Positions 13,450 to 29,208 of a stretch of DNA of 38,401 nucleotides are shown in pieces. Source of the stretch: a virus; IMG/VR virus record IMGVR_UViG_3300049793_000034, positions 1 through 38,401 of that record; one strand, given 5' to 3'. Both the position numbers and the translations under genes were made by a program. The notes beneath the pieces were generated by a model. It ran no database searches and was not told the origin of the DNA. It saw only the letters and a program-made list of their open reading frames with translations. Position 1 is the stretch's first letter, and each line of letters opens with the position of its first letter.

Positions 13450-13964
13450 TCGCCGTGAACTCCGCATTCGTCCAGAAGTTGCAGCCGGTCATCGTTGGTC
13501 ATCTCGACCTTTGCCAGCACAGAATCAAGGCTACCGTCACGCTGGAAGGCCGCTTTAGCGTTCGTCCATGCCTGAGTCATGGCAGGGGTCAGGCGCTTCT
13601 TGGCAACGCTCTTAGGGCTTATACGCAAGCCTTCCAGCGTCTCTTTGCCGAAGCGCACGTTATTGTCCACGTAGACCGTAACCTGTAATCCGTGCCAATC
13701 TTCAAGGAACGCAGAGCCGGTCAGGTTCTTCATCGTCTTGCTGTTGGTCGCATTGAGAATCATCGGCTTGAGTTTCTCGCCCACGCGGATTTCCTTCTCA
13801 ACGAAATAGGCCGTGTTGAAGTGATCCTTAGTTTTCTTGGTCTTGTCCAATTCCAGGGCCACGCGGCCAATCGTCAGAACTGTAGGCTCAACGATATCAG
13901 CGCTCGACAGATACGGAGAATCGAATGCTTTGCGGAAATGGGTCTTGCGTTCTTGCTCAGTCAC
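13446..13964 (-). CDS. Candidate ssDNA-binding partner of the exonuclease
   Basis: TAGGAG touches an ATG at 13970 but has a proper 6-nt gap to a GTG at 13964, so I start at the GTG (172 residues); ATG 13970 would add two residues. The protein begins MTEQERKTHFRKAFDSPYLSS. It has a basic core (KLKPMILNATNSKTMKNLTG), a WHGLQVTVYVDNNVRFG segment typical of beta-strands, and GLRISPK. The same protein type pairs with YqaJ-family exonucleases in other phages (from memory), where an OB-fold ssDNA-binding role is suspected. That role is an inference here. Confidence 0.6.
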   Translation of the reverse strand: MTEQERKTHFRKAFDSPYLSSADIVEPTVLTIGRVALELDKTKKTKDHFNTAYFVEKEIRVGEKLKPMILNATNSKTMKNLTGSAFLEDWHGLQVTVYVDNNVRFGKETLEGLRISPKSVAKKRLTPAMTQAWTNAKAAFQRDGSLDSVLAKVEMTNDDRLQLLDECGVHGE

Positions 13965-24588: not shown

Positions 24589-26688
24589 ATGAGAATGACA
24601 CAGCGCCTAACCGACATTCACGCCAGCGCATTGGCTGAGTTCGACAAGATTCAGTCGGCAGTTTACCCAGAGCGCATGCTCTGCTTAGAAGATCGCCGAT
24701 TTTACTCTATCGCAGGCGCGCAGTGGGAAGGACAGCTTGGGGAGCAGTTCAGCAACAAGCCAAAGTTTGAATTTAATAAGGTCCATCTCGCGGTCATTCG
24801 CATCATCAATGAATACCGTAACAATCGTATCACCGTGGATTTCCTGCCCAAAGCAGGCTTCGAAGACCAGAAGCTGGCGGACACTTGTGACGATCTATTC
24901 CGCGCAGACGAGCAGGATTCGGTAGCCCAAGAAGCCTACGACAACGCCTTTGAGGAAGCTTGCGCCGGCGGCTTCGGAGCTTTCCGTCTCTGCTCAGAAT
25001 ACGAGAATCCAGAAGACGAAGAGGATGAACGCCAGCGCATTCGGTTTGAGCCGATTGTGGATGCTGATAGCTCCGTGTTCTTCAGCCTCTCATCTAAGCG
25101 CCAGGACAAGCGCGATGCTAAGCGATGCTACGTCATCGTCAGCATGTCGACGCAAGCCTACCGTGATGAATACAACGATGATCCGGCAGCATGGCCTAAA
25201 GAGATACTTCAGACCCAGTTCGATTGGTATACCCCAGAAGTTACCTACATTGCTGAACTCTATGATGTAGAGAAGACCAAGAAGAAGATTCAGGTCTGGA
25301 AAGGGCTTGACGGCGAAGAAACCCAATACACCGATGAAGATTTTGAAGCTGACGAAGGCTTAGAGAATGAGTTGAAAGTCACGGGAAGTCAGTTGATCAA
25401 GACCAAGACGATCCAGACTCAGCGCGTCCGCAAATACATCATGTCGGGCGGCAAGATTCTAGAAGATTGTGGTTATATTGCAGGCAAGAACATCCCGATT
25501 GTTCCGGTTTACGGCAAACGTTGGTTTGTGGATAACGTTGAACGTTGCATGGGCCACGTACGTCTTGCTAAAGACCCTCAGCGCCTGAAGAACATGCAGC
25601 TCAGCAAATTGGGTGAGATCAGTGCGCTCTCAAGCGTGCAGAAGCCCATGATGACGCCTGAGCAGATTGCCGGGCACCAGCAGATGTGGGCTGATGACAA
25701 CATCAAGAACTATCCCTACCTGCTGATTAACAAGACCACAACGGCAGACGGTCAAAGCGTCATTGCTCCACCTGTCGGTTATACCCAAGTCCCCAATGTG
25801 CCTCCGGCTATGGCTGCACTGCTGCAGCTCACTGAACAGGACATGAAGGAGATTCTCGGTAGTCAGCAGGCCGCAGAGCAGATTGTTTCCGGTGTTAGCG
25901 GTAAAGCCGTAGAGATGATCCAGACGCGTCTCGATATGCAGACCTTCATCTACATGTCTAACTTCGCCAAAGCCATGAAACGTGCGGGTGAGATTTGGCT
26001 CAGCATGGCCAAAGAGCTTTATGTTGAAGAAGATCGCAAGATGAAGACGATCAATCAGCAGGGTGATGCTGGCACAGCAACCTTGATGAAGCCGATGATG
26101 GACAAGGAATCCGGCGCTATCAAAGCTGAAAATGATATGAGCAACGCTGAACTTGAAGTCTCAGTCGATGTCGGCCCTTCCTCAAGCAGCAAGCGTGCGG
26201 CAACCGTCAGAGCTTTGACTGGCATGATGCAGATCGCCAACCAAGACCCTGAGACGATGAATGTCCTCACTTCGATGGCCATGATGAACATGGAAGGTGA
26301 AGGCATTGGCGATGTCCGCGATTACTTCCATGCCAAATTGGTGAACATGGGTGTTGTCAAGCCGACTCCTGAAGAAGCCCAGCAGCTGGAAGCGGCTAGA
26401 GCCAATCAGAAGCCCGACGCACAGACGAACTACCTCAATGCTGCTGCTGAAGAAGCCACGGCCGGCGCAGCCAACAAGCGGGCCGATACGGTCTACAAGA
26501 TTGCAGGAGCTGAAGAGCGCCGCGCATCTGCCGTCAAACAGATTTCCAGCATTCCCATTGCTGAGCGTAATCAGACTCTGCAAGAGATTCAAGCCGCTGG
26601 AGAGTTACAAGCCCAGCAGTCGCAACAAGTTGTTTCAGAGCCCGCAAATCCTGAAGCAGCGCCGGTCCCCACTCAGCCGGTCCCATGA
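24589..26688 (+). CDS. Portal protein, P22 gp1-like
   Basis: A 699-residue protein (P22 gp1 is 725), ATG 24589. Conserved P22-type blocks are visible: FEFNKVHLAVIRIINEYRNN, NAFEEACAGGFGAFRL, IVSMSTQAYRDEY, then the motif GKNIPIVPVYGKRWFVDN (P22 has GEHIPIVPVFGEWGF) and RLAKDPQRLKNMQLS. The C-terminal ~100 residues are Gln/Ala/Glu-rich helices, like the P22 barrel. Twelve copies form the ring for DNA entry and exit and hold the tail. Confidence 0.93.
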   Translation: MRMTQRLTDIHASALAEFDKIQSAVYPERMLCLEDRRFYSIAGAQWEGQLGEQFSNKPKFEFNKVHLAVIRIINEYRNNRITVDFLPKAGFEDQKLADTCDDLFRADEQDSVAQEAYDNAFEEACAGGFGAFRLCSEYENPEDEEDERQRIRFEPIVDADSSVFFSLSSKRQDKRDAKRCYVIVSMSTQAYRDEYNDDPAAWPKEILQTQFDWYTPEVTYIAELYDVEKTKKKIQVWKGLDGEETQYTDEDFEADEGLENELKVTGSQLIKTKTIQTQRVRKYIMSGGKILEDCGYIAGKNIPIVPVYGKRWFVDNVERCMGHVRLAKDPQRLKNMQLSKLGEISALSSVQKPMMTPEQIAGHQQMWADDNIKNYPYLLINKTTTADGQSVIAPPVGYTQVPNVPPAMAALLQLTEQDMKEILGSQQAAEQIVSGVSGKAVEMIQTRLDMQTFIYMSNFAKAMKRAGEIWLSMAKELYVEEDRKMKTINQQGDAGTATLMKPMMDKESGAIKAENDMSNAELEVSVDVGPSSSSKRAATVRALTGMMQIANQDPETMNVLTSMAMMNMEGEGIGDVRDYFHAKLVNMGVVKPTPEEAQQLEAARANQKPDAQTNYLNAAAEEATAGAANKRADTVYKIAGAEERRASAVKQISSIPIAERNQTLQEIQAAGELQAQQSQQVVSEPANPEAAPVPTQPVP

Positions 26689-26706
26689 GTGAGCAAGGAG
26701 TAGAGC

Positions 26707-27603
26707 ATGCCTAAGATTGAAGTGATTGATGGAAAGACGCCGGAAGAACTCGCCGCAGAAGCTGCAGCATTAGCTGAATCCGGTGAAGAGGAAGAGCAGG
26801 AAGAGGAAGAAGAACTTGATCCTGAGCAGCCAGCCGAAGGCGCTGAAGCTGAACAGGAAGAAGAAACGATTGTCTCTATCGGTGAAGAATCTGTAGAGGA
26901 GGCTGCCGAGCGTCATACGCCGGCCCCGCAATGGATCAAGGAACTTCGCCAGAAGACCCGCGACCAAGCACGACAGATCAGGGAATTGACTGAACGGGCC
27001 AATGGGGCAGCCGGTGTGGTCCAGAAGATTCAAGTGGGCAAGAAGCCCACGCTAGAAGCCTGTGACTTCGATGCTGAACGCTTTGAGCGTGAGCTGGATA
27101 CTTGGCATGACACCAAGCGTAAGGCCGATCAGCAGGAAGCACAGGAGAAGGAACAGGCAGACGCCCAAGGCAAGCAGTGGCAAGAGCGCATGCAGGGCTA
27201 TGAGAAGAGCAAAGCAATCCTGAAGGTGATTGACTTCGAAGATGCTGAATCTGCTGTGCAAGAAGCGCTGACGGTCACGCAGCAGGGCATTATTGTCTCG
27301 GGCGTGGATAATTCAGCCTTGATGATCTACGCCTTGGGCAAGAATCCTGCCAAACTCAAAGAACTCGCTGCGATCAAAGATCCAGTCAAGTTCACTTTTG
27401 CCATCGCTAAGTTGGAGCCTCAATTGAAAACCACCACACGCAACAAAGCCCCGGCCCCAGAACGTCGTCTCGATAGCTCGGGATCAACCTCTGGCGTCGT
27501 GAACAACGAACTGGAAAAGCTTCGCGCCGAAGCTGAAAAGACCGGCGATTACACGAAGGTCGTCGCTTACCGTAAACGCATGAAAGAGAAAGCGCGTGCA
27601 TAA
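26707..27603 (+). CDS. Scaffolding protein, P22 gp8-like
   Basis: A 298-residue protein (P22 gp8 is 303), ATG 26707 behind AAGGAGTAG. Residues 24-56 are extremely acidic (runs of Glu). The middle is helical with heptads, and the C-terminus is basic (residues about 265-298, NNELEKLRAEAEKTGDYTK then RKRMKEKARA), matching the coat-binding helix-turn-helix at the end of P22 scaffold. It directs coat assembly and is then released. It sits between portal and coat as in P22. Confidence 0.87.
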   Translation: MPKIEVIDGKTPEELAAEAAALAESGEEEEQEEEEELDPEQPAEGAEAEQEEETIVSIGEESVEEAAERHTPAPQWIKELRQKTRDQARQIRELTERANGAAGVVQKIQVGKKPTLEACDFDAERFERELDTWHDTKRKADQQEAQEKEQADAQGKQWQERMQGYEKSKAILKVIDFEDAESAVQEALTVTQQGIIVSGVDNSALMIYALGKNPAKLKELAAIKDPVKFTFAIAKLEPQLKTTTRNKAPAPERRLDSSGSTSGVVNNELEKLRAEAEKTGDYTKVVAYRKRMKEKARA

Positions 27604-27606
27604 ATG

Positions 27607-27636
27607 TTGTAATCCCTGATTCATTGGGGGTATATT
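27607..27636 (+). promoter_or_regulatory. Candidate promoter for the coat gene
   Basis: TTGTAA (27607-27612), 18-nt spacer, TATATT (27631-27636). It begins just after the scaffold stop and would give a leader of about 100 nt before the coat ATG. A coat-only promoter followed by a terminator after coat would allow extra coat synthesis. Confidence 0.5.
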
Positions 27637-27668
27637 CAGCGCACTAGTTCCGGTTCTATCTAACCGAG

Positions 27669-27748
27669 CATGATCGGCTCCGCCTCCGAATGGTGAGTAA
27701 GCAGCAAATGCGAACTCAATTCCAATCATTCAACAGGAGCCGATCATG
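27669..27748 (+). promoter_or_regulatory. Leader hairpin that sequesters the coat ribosome-binding site and AUG
   Basis: CATGATCGGCTCC (27669-27681) is the exact reverse complement of GGAGCCGATCATG (27736-27748). The right arm contains the GGAG ribosome-binding site and the whole coat ATG. Inside the 54-nt interval, GAATGGT (27688-27694) can pair with ATCATTC (27725-27731, one G-U), so the structure is a 13-bp stem, a 6x4 internal loop and a 7-bp stem. As mRNA it would block initiation on coat until opened. Confidence 0.7.
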
Positions 27749-29017
27749 GCTAATAGTTTCAACAAAGAAGAGCGCGTTGCTTTCGAGCAACTCCTAGAGG
27801 GATTCAACGACCAGCTCGTTTTGTCCCGCAATGTCAAGATTTACAACACCGACTCGCTGACTATGGAGCGTGCGCAGGACACCATCTGGCGTCCAGTGCC
27901 GTACATCCAGACCAGCCTTGACGGTTCGCCTGGTACGGACATCTCGGCCAGCTTCATCGGTAAGACCGAGCTGGCTGTGCCCGCAACCCTCGGCTTCTCC
28001 CGAGCTTCGCCTTGGACGATGAACGCCAAGGAACTCCGTGATGCACTGCAGGAAAAGCGTTTGGGTGATGCGGCCAAGCAGAAGCTGGCTTCGGACATCA
28101 ACGTCAATCTGATGAACCTCGCCGCAGTCCAAGGCACGCTGTTTGTGAAGCGTCCTCTGGCTGCGTCTGGTTTCGATGATGTGGCGGCTGCTGAAGCCAT
28201 CATGAACGAGCAGGGCGTTCCGTCCAATGATCGCGTCATGGCACTCTCAACCCGCGACTACAACGGCATGGCCAGCAACTTGGCAGGCCGTCAGAACGTC
28301 ACTGATCTTCCTCTGGAAGCCTATCGCCGCGCCTATGTCGGCATGATCGCCAGCTTTGATACTTACAAGCTCGATTACGCCAATCGTCAGGCCGCTGCTG
28401 CAGGTTCTGGTTTGACGATCAGCACGGCAGATGCAGGCGTGAACTTCTACAACCCACGCGCAACCAGCACGTCAGTAGGTGGCAAGATCAACGTGGATAA
28501 CCGCTACCAGACTGTAACGGTATCGGCCACCACAGGTATCGTAGCCGGTGACGCCTTCACCATTGCGAACGTGAACTCGGTCCATCACATCACCAAGGGT
28601 GATACGGGCCAGCTCAAGACCTTCCGCGTGATCTCGGTCACTGACGGCACGCACATGGTGATCAGCCCTCCGATCATCAGCAACCAGGTTGCAGACAATG
28701 CAGCCGCTCAGTATCAGAATTGCGTTGTGACGGCTAAGTCCGCCACTGCCGCAATTGTGTTCCTGAACACGGTGGCTGGTTATCTCAATCCGTTCTGGCA
28801 GAAGGATGCCATCGAACTCCTGCCGGGCCGCTATGCGGTGCCTACGGACTCGGGTGCAGCCATCATGCGCGGCACTACGGATCAGGGGATTGAGGTCGTG
28901 ATGCAGAAGTTCTACGACATCAACACGATGATCACCAAGTATCGTCTCGATACCCTGTTTGGTGTGGTCATGACCAATCCGGAAATGTGCGGTGTTGAGA
29001 TGTTCGCGCAGACTTAA
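27746..29017 (+). CDS. Major coat protein, P22 gp5-like with I-domain
   Basis: A 423-residue protein (P22 gp5 is 430). The N-terminal part has TIWRPVPYIQ (P22: TIWMPVEQ), then the HK97-fold body (SPWTMNAKELRDALQEKRLG). Residues about 220-345 match the telokin-like I-domain of P22: GKINVDNRYQTVTVSATTG and KTFRVISVTDGTHMVISPP. The C-terminal part has the MxxFWQKDAIELLPGRY region, with FWQKDAI matching P22 FWADDAI. It forms the icosahedral shell. The ATG is held in a predicted leader hairpin. Confidence 0.94.
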   Translation: MANSFNKEERVAFEQLLEGFNDQLVLSRNVKIYNTDSLTMERAQDTIWRPVPYIQTSLDGSPGTDISASFIGKTELAVPATLGFSRASPWTMNAKELRDALQEKRLGDAAKQKLASDINVNLMNLAAVQGTLFVKRPLAASGFDDVAAAEAIMNEQGVPSNDRVMALSTRDYNGMASNLAGRQNVTDLPLEAYRRAYVGMIASFDTYKLDYANRQAAAAGSGLTISTADAGVNFYNPRATSTSVGGKINVDNRYQTVTVSATTGIVAGDAFTIANVNSVHHITKGDTGQLKTFRVISVTDGTHMVISPPIISNQVADNAAAQYQNCVVTAKSATAAIVFLNTVAGYLNPFWQKDAIELLPGRYAVPTDSGAAIMRGTTDQGIEVVMQKFYDINTMITKYRLDTLFGVVMTNPEMCGVEMFAQT

Positions 29018-29029
29018 AACGGCAACCTT

Positions 29030-29053
29030 AAGGGGGCTTCGGCCCCCTTTTTT
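29030..29053 (+). terminator. Strong rho-independent terminator after the coat gene
   Basis: AAGGGGGC (29030-29037), loop TTCG (29038-29041), GCCCCCTT (29042-29049) and a run of T to 29053. The UUCG-type tetraloop and G/C stem make it very stable. It lies 12 nt after the coat stop and would cut most transcripts before the head-tail genes. Confidence 0.9.
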
Positions 29054-29067
29054 CTATGGAGAAAGTT

Positions 29068-29208
29068 ATGCCGCTGAAGAAAGGTTCAAGCAAGAAAGTC
29101 ATTTCAAGCAATATCCGGCGTGAAGTAGCTGCCGGAAAACCAGTGAAGCAAGCCGTAGCGATTGCTTATTCCAAAGCAGGCAAGTCCCGCAAGCGGAGCA
29201 AGAAGTGA
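29068..29208 (+). CDS. Small basic phage protein ([10 protein letters not shown] type)
   Basis: A 46-residue frame, ATG 29068 behind GGAGAAAG. It has the wide-spread pattern [20 protein letters not shown], then [16 protein letters not shown], and a Lys/Arg-rich end. Small proteins of this type are common in phage genomes and may bind nucleic acid; their function is unknown to me. It overlaps the next gene by GTGA. Confidence 0.75.

Follow-up and report, generated by a model that had tools for sequence, protein, structure and literature searches.

A small H-type RNA pseudoknot lies just 5' of the scaffold gene in most of the P22-type relatives examined, and two such units stand in tandem in the long leaders of the coat gene, where the second of them competes with a stem that hides the Shine-Dalgarno sequence (SD). 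This strongly conserved unit is an RNA element not previously described, and its structure is well supported by sequence comparison. It is probably, at a little better than even confidence, a translational operator that serves both scaffold and coat in P22-type phages.

Features of the window

The window is the whole stretch of DNA analysed (38,401 nucleotides). The coat leader stem is surrounded by genes for a portal of P22 type, a scaffold (phrog_648) and a coat protein (PF11651) (Table 1).

Table 1. Features around the scaffold and coat leaders of the window.
Feature	Position	Strand	Basis
Scaffold-leader pseudoknot	26661..26691	+	descriptor score 27.7; homologues in most scaffold leaders
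Scaffold protein gene	26707..27603	+	phrog_648 head scaffolding protein, E = 8.5e-52
Candidate sigma-70 coat promoter TTGTAA-18-TATATT	27607..27636	+	scan; 8 nt 5' of PK1
Candidate pseudoknot PK1, UAG-UUC-CGGUU-CUA-UCU-AACCG, then AG	27645..27666	+	score 19.4; position as in relatives' PK1
5' arm of SD-sequestering stem	27669..27681	+	inverted repeat and fold; overlaps PK2 Sa and L1
Coat-leader pseudoknot PK2	27674..27695	+	score 18.6; homologous position in relatives
Inner stem-loop	27688..27731	+	minimum-energy fold; GAATGGT/ATCATTC, TGAGT/ACTCA, GCA/TGC tip
3' arm of SD-sequestering stem	27736..27748	+	spans SD GGAG to coat ATG
P22-type major coat protein gene	27746..29017	+	PF11651, E = 2.1e-87
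Intrinsic terminator directly 3' of coat gene	29030..29050	+	predicted; Sf6 and HK620 annotations likewise

The pseudoknot of the scaffold leaders

The pseudoknot was first spotted through the weaker matches of a covariance model (R1) about 1 kb upstream of the coat leader, at the portal/scaffold junction. The unit runs from Sa through about 3 nt, the last of them C, to Sb and Sa', and from there through a short A/U linker to Sb' and AG(U). Sa has 3-6 bp and Sb 4-7 bp (C...G); Sa' follows immediately and the linker has 2-9 nt. The conserved loop nucleotides are the C before Sb and the AG after Sb'. In the window the copy reads Sa GCCGGU (26661-26666), L1 CCC, Sb CACUCA (26670-26675), Sa' GCCGGU (26676-26681), L3 CCCA and Sb' UGAGUG (26686-26691), then AG. 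Between its end and the scaffold ATG (26707) there are 15 nt, and the portal stop TGA (26686-26688) falls within Sb'.

With a descriptor of this unit, devised after examples had been seen, 90 of 123 unique scaffold leaders (a set that, like the others used here, includes relatives) score above the 99th percentile of their own shuffles; in several of those below, the start codon was mis-assigned. When 64 distinct scaffold pseudoknots are aligned (MAFFT), 88.4% of the cells are paired versus 28-42% with slid partners, the former value being inflated, because the descriptor with which the 64 were selected requires both stems. Nevertheless, this selection cannot account for the counts, since shuffled scaffold leaders attain the required score only about 3-5% of the time. 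The covariation score is 0.506, against 0.05-0.12 for slid partners, and 10 of the 11 pairs have two-sided changes, the remaining pair being an invariant C-G. Both stems covary, in the 64 scaffold leaders as well as in 37 coat leaders.

The median distance between the end of the pseudoknot and the scaffold start codon is 17 nt (15-19 in the middle half), so that the pseudoknot abuts the SD. Its spacing from the portal stop is loose (5-95% range -33 to 161 nt). A frameshift or read-through pseudoknot of the portal gene was rejected on this basis, i.e., a widely varying distance to the portal stop and a tight one to the scaffold start. The pseudoknot overlaps the portal gene, and thus lies inside the operon, in 23 of 80 cases, the window included. 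Where scaffold leaders have good matches to a promoter, 6-9 nt in most cases separate the end of the predicted -10 box from the pseudoknot, which hence begins approximately at the predicted transcription start. Pairing of the scaffold pseudoknot with its own SD gives -7.3 versus -7.9 with the SDs of others, i.e., no own-SD excess.

Genome-wide ranking and reference phages

When both strands of the window are scanned with the descriptor, the scaffold-leader copy comes first (27.7; according to shuffles, 0.0 matches should score at least 26). PK1 (19.4) is second and PK2 (18.6) fourth, about two matches of at least 18 being expected by chance in the entire window. The scores of PK1 and PK2 in the window are thus not significant alone; the case for them is that PK1 and PK2 of relatives occupy the same positions. 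The scaffold leader is also the top match genome-wide in the annotated complete genomes MW202867, PfAn1 and MW202475.

Among reference phages the pseudoknot is present in Sf6, HK620, APSE-7, phiSG1, CUS-3, Kapi1 and PfAn1. It reads AGUC-NC-CGGCA-GACU-UAA-UGCCG-AG in Sf6 and HK620, and AGUC-AC-CUGCG-GACU-UCC-CGCAG-AG in APSE-7. Copies with a CG tail, which was admitted to the descriptor after the first such cases had been seen, are found in Lumpael, IME_EC2, C130_2, Skarpretter and VSN-002. In each reference phage with the pseudoknot, the copy outscores 299 or more of 300 shuffles; Sf6, HK620, CUS-3, APSE-7, phiSG1, Lumpael, IME_EC2 and others stood outside the definition of the descriptor. It must be noted that in C130_2, Skarpretter, IME_EC2 and Lumpael (loci L475, L476, L483 and L649) CGU replaces AGU and the start codon is farther than usual; these copies possibly form a subtype.

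By the same comparison of descriptor scores with shuffles, no convincing copy was found in AH02, Vibrio phage 1.275 or Aeromonas phage 4_4512. The scaffold (gene 8) leader of P22 and P22-like prophages likewise has no canonical or convincing copy. The P22 candidate CGGC-A-GUGU-A-GCCG-AG-ACAC was discarded, being weak and broken in a 91% relative (L643). A different type of scaffold does not explain this absence, the P22 scaffold belonging likewise to phrog_648.

The window and 20 relatives have no match in Rfam 15 at the gathering score. With a permissive threshold (E up to 10) a single match was obtained, to a snoRNA, at chance level (14.6 bits for a gathering score of 39).

The stem over the coat SD and start codon

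The initial annotation had described a perfect 13-bp inverted repeat with the SD and start codon of the coat gene in its right arm. Both are borne out: the arms are CATGATCGGCTCC (27669-27681) and GGAGCCGATCATG (27736-27748), and the latter contains both the coat ATG (27746-27748) and the SD, GGAG (27736-27739). This repeat exceeds in length all other perfect inverted repeats of the 38 kb window (loop of at most 80 nt), and none of 13 bp or more occurs in 6 dinucleotide shuffles of the window. The runner-up has 12 bp and a loop of 78 (13539-13550 / 13629-13640). The nested 7-bp stem is also as described, i.e., GAATGGT (27688-27694) with ATCATTC (27725-27731), including one G-U pair. A second helix of the inner stem-loop joins TGAGT (27694-27698) to ACTCA (27714-27718); the GGUG of this stem-loop is common to PK2, and its UGAG...CUCA is conserved in relatives.

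The predicted fold of 27660-27760 reaches -38.9 kcal/mol (z = -5.5, none of 200 shuffles as good), and that of 27600-27800, the folding proposed at the outset, has z = -3.9. Keeping the SD and AUG unpaired would cost about 22 kcal/mol (-43.8 vs. -22.0). The window coat leader thus has its SD and AUG paired in a stable hairpin, as in SD hairpins of the RNA-phage type.

Among the openings suggested earlier, a ribosome translating the upstream scaffold gene is unlikely, the stop codon at 27603 being already 66 nt away from the stem, and the cost of about 22 kcal/mol argues against a simple thermometer. The promoter candidate at 27607-27636 was recovered by our scan, though near the chance rate (1.5 expected in that stretch); the promoter score directly upstream of PK1 exceeds the 95th percentile of shuffles in 19 of 48 long coat leaders, which is modest support.

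Tandem pseudoknots of the long coat leaders

Long coat leaders carry two tandem pseudoknots, one at roughly -100 to -125, the other at -70 to -90. PK1 of relatives reads GGU-UUC-GCC-A-GCC-...-GGC-AG; its pair count was left out, since displacements in the 3' part of the MAFFT alignment would have distorted it. For PK2, 83.2% of the cells are paired versus 23-43% with slid partners, with covariation scores of 0.380 and 0.02-0.14, respectively. PK2 of the window consists of Sa UCGG (27674-27677), CUC, Sb CGCC (27681-27684), U, Sa' CCGA (27686-27689), AU and Sb' GGUG (27692-27695), then AG. A variable stem-loop, the UGAG...CUCA of which overlaps Sb' nucleotides, separates PK2 from the SD.

The compensatory changes that the initial annotation proposed to look for in the coat leaders of relatives were found in the pairing with the SD. 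The PK2 segment pairs with its own SD at a mean of -11.3 kcal/mol versus -8.97 (sd 0.28) when SDs are permuted (none of 5000 permutations as good). Kinship among the rows should weaken and not create this own-SD excess. The strand that pairs with the SD is usually Sa' plus the linker (Sa'/L3), while in the window it is Sa, L1 and the preceding bases. Since the SD pairs with strands of PK2 or with nucleotides adjacent to them, the pseudoknot and the full SD-hiding stem exclude each other, in the window as in relatives. Judging by sequence alone, the window stem appears to have been rebuilt with Sa/L1 as anti-SD arm, the mutual exclusion being kept.

These comparisons lead to the conclusions that: (i) an SD/AUG-sequestering structure does exist in a P22-type coat leader, as annotated, probably with a promoter of its own and a regulatory role; (ii) the earlier interpretation has to be revised, the conserved core being the pseudoknot that competes with the hairpin and not the hairpin itself.

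Three coat leaders have an arrangement of their own. In L163 two near-identical units of PK2 type (CGCC-U-CCG...GGUG) are found at -102 and -71, and L205 and L233 have near-identical tandem pseudoknots of PK2 type as well, which suggests local duplication.

Distribution of the long coat leader

Coat relatives were drawn from IMG/VR, GTDB genomes and phage records. In most of them the gap between scaffold and coat is below 45 nt, which leaves no room for the hairpin; a leader of 80-360 nt is found in about one in six of 281 loci (some contigs being counted more than once). It had been stated that the absence of pairing in relatives with the same coat gene would speak against the proposal. This holds for the closest coat relatives (79% identity; L001-L005, L007), which have no long leader at all, and not for others, whose leaders are homologous and contain an SD pairing of their own.

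All IMG/VR contigs were also scanned twice by pattern, independently of the coat protein; both scans recover the same leader, with a P22-type coat gene downstream where checked. The covariance model R1 gives matches of 36-99 bits in about 70 loci, and matches the window leader at 27652-27748 with 17.8 bits (E = 5e-4). L294, which seemed to have a different gene behind the leader, encodes in fact a coat protein with an N-terminal extension, apparently hydrophobic (MKRVILHILAALAWFIEPLL...), ahead of the usual QFSKEERVAFE. In L403 the pseudoknot leader of coat type (upstream of 2390, minus strand) is followed, in place of the coat start, by an apparent HNH endonuclease-like ORF (VASSEAKEKQRVRMKAWRESNKDRIAEY...), possibly an endonuclease insertion between the leader and the coat gene.

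On the coat tree the long leader requires 19 gains or losses, at least 12 of them by well-supported branches, and thus behaves as a module that comes and goes. Given this patchiness, assembly in general does not depend on it.

Two other explanations of the long leader were discarded. A coat unit delimited by promoter and terminator does not account for it, terminators after coat being found in 60 of 128 short-leader and 12 of 34 long-leader loci. A small basic ORF after coat, considered as regulator, occurs in 1 of 34 long-leader loci versus 33 of 128 short-leader ones. The window has such a short, highly basic ORF at 29068-29208, directly 3' of the coat terminator; the ORFs resembling it in the short-leader relatives are of the KQAVAIAY type.

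A possible mechanism and its alternatives

If the pseudoknot is an operator, a trans factor would bind or stabilise it. In the scaffold leader the bound pseudoknot would abut the SD without hiding it and block ribosomes. In the coat leader the pseudoknot would occupy the anti-SD strand, so that binding of the factor, or early folding during transcription, would leave the SD free; once the pseudoknot is lost, the long stem would close on it. According to the folding model, hardly any coat would be made from a leader settled in the 13-bp stem. A ligand or the order of folding during transcription would then have to hold the leader open during coat synthesis; the stem may also simply win at equilibrium. 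The trans factor would most likely be a structural protein of the phage. Unassembled scaffold comes first among the suspects, since nowhere is the element better conserved than in the scaffold's own leader and since scaffold of P22 reportedly regulates itself post-transcriptionally. That one single protein, most simply unassembled scaffold, acts both as a repressor of scaffold, beside its SD, and as an activator of coat, where it would retain the anti-SD strand in the pseudoknot, is a conjecture that we regard as rather doubtful.

A ligand-free element at the 5' end, which would slow end-dependent decay or aid ribosome loading, is unlikely. Scaffold and coat are abundant late proteins, as such a role would want, and the pseudoknot begins approximately at the predicted transcription start in the scaffold leaders with strong promoters, as does PK1 in many coat leaders; however, copies also lie inside operons and overlap portal, the scaffold start codon lies at a narrowly constrained distance, and the covarying SD pairing of the coat leaders would be superfluous for pure stability. 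The location just 3' of predicted promoters in part of the phages would also suit a put-like antitermination element of the nascent RNA acting on RNA polymerase. This is very improbable, the copies inside operons having no nearby promoter and both the constant distance from the scaffold start and the SD pairing pointing to translation.

Mutually exclusive strands are equally what is expected of a self-contained folding timer, in which the pseudoknots fold first, the SD is briefly free and then the long stem closes, no ligand being involved. Opening the stem would cost about 22 kcal/mol and PK2 can hold the 5' arm as long as the SD has not been transcribed; a timer would nevertheless leave unexplained why the pseudoknot also precedes scaffold, where there is no sign of an SD stem, and this possibility appears improbable. 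The idea of an SD-sequestering hairpin alone, with incidental pseudoknots, draws on the long hairpin being the nested minimum-energy structure. It conflicts with the covariation of both pseudoknot stems, including in scaffold leaders that have no hairpin, and with the absence of the hairpin from the nearest coat relatives; we give it very little credit. Known small pseudoknot aptamers resemble the element in size, loop conservation and tandem layout, and a compact H-type aptamer, in tandem before coat, might accordingly be a riboswitch for a small molecule. There is no Rfam match, however, the conserved loop nucleotides are few and a metabolite signal is poorly motivated for capsid genes, which makes a riboswitch hardly credible. 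A translational operator shared by scaffold and coat is the reading that we retain.

Comparison with known systems

The pseudoknot in the gene 32 leader of T4, T2 and RB69 is the autogenous operator of gp32 and nucleates the binding of the repressor over the SD (PMC3014915, PMC535899). In 2010 it was viewed as possibly the only viral pseudoknot in translational autoregulation (PMC3014915). The likeness lies in an H-type pseudoknot in a phage mRNA leader, with coaxial stems and short loops, upstream of the start. The differences are the gene class (SSB there, scaffold and coat here), the distance to the start (67 nt versus about 17 nt, with no sequence kinship shown), and, here, the two genes, the tandem copies and the competing SD stem before coat. 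In the gene 32 leader an unstructured, A+U-rich stretch of UUAA(A) repeats separates the pseudoknot from the SD; in many scaffold leaders the pseudoknot is followed by a short AGUUAA/AGUUU tail that lacks repeats. At most, the element would work like an operator of the gene 32 type; membership is not claimed.

The post-transcriptional autoregulation of the P22 scaffolding protein is said to have been established by King, Hall and Casjens, Casjens and Adams, and Wyckoff and Casjens. It concerns the same gene as is preceded by the pseudoknot here, with homologous scaffolds (phrog_648). P22 itself differs in having no convincing copy, which counts against directly identifying the element with the site of P22 autoregulation. 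Our literature search found no RNA target for this autoregulation and nothing on the present scaffold and coat leaders, the search covering only a minority of the subscription papers.

The pseudoknot of E. coli rpsO (S15) competes with an alternative hairpin. It is likewise an operator (PMC3014915). The resemblance comprises a pseudoknot at the ribosome-binding site, a competing hairpin and translational control; rpsO encodes a cellular ribosomal protein, and no relation is shown. In RNA phages of the MS2 type, the coat/replicase operator hairpins are SD/AUG structures controlled by the capsid protein. They share with the coat leader a structure over SD/AUG, and differ from it as simple hairpins of RNA phages, devoid of a pseudoknot.

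Significance

The element would be the second candidate for a viral pseudoknot of translational autoregulation, apparently far more widespread than that of T4 gene 32. This candidate is absent from Rfam and occurs in tractable laboratory phages (Sf6, HK620, CUS-3). The coat leader may represent a natural pseudoknot-versus-stem switch. If one protein did act in opposite ways on the two leaders, the scaffold:coat ratio would correct itself during capsid assembly. With the element, the balance between scaffold and coat synthesis in P22-type phages would become directly testable at the RNA level.
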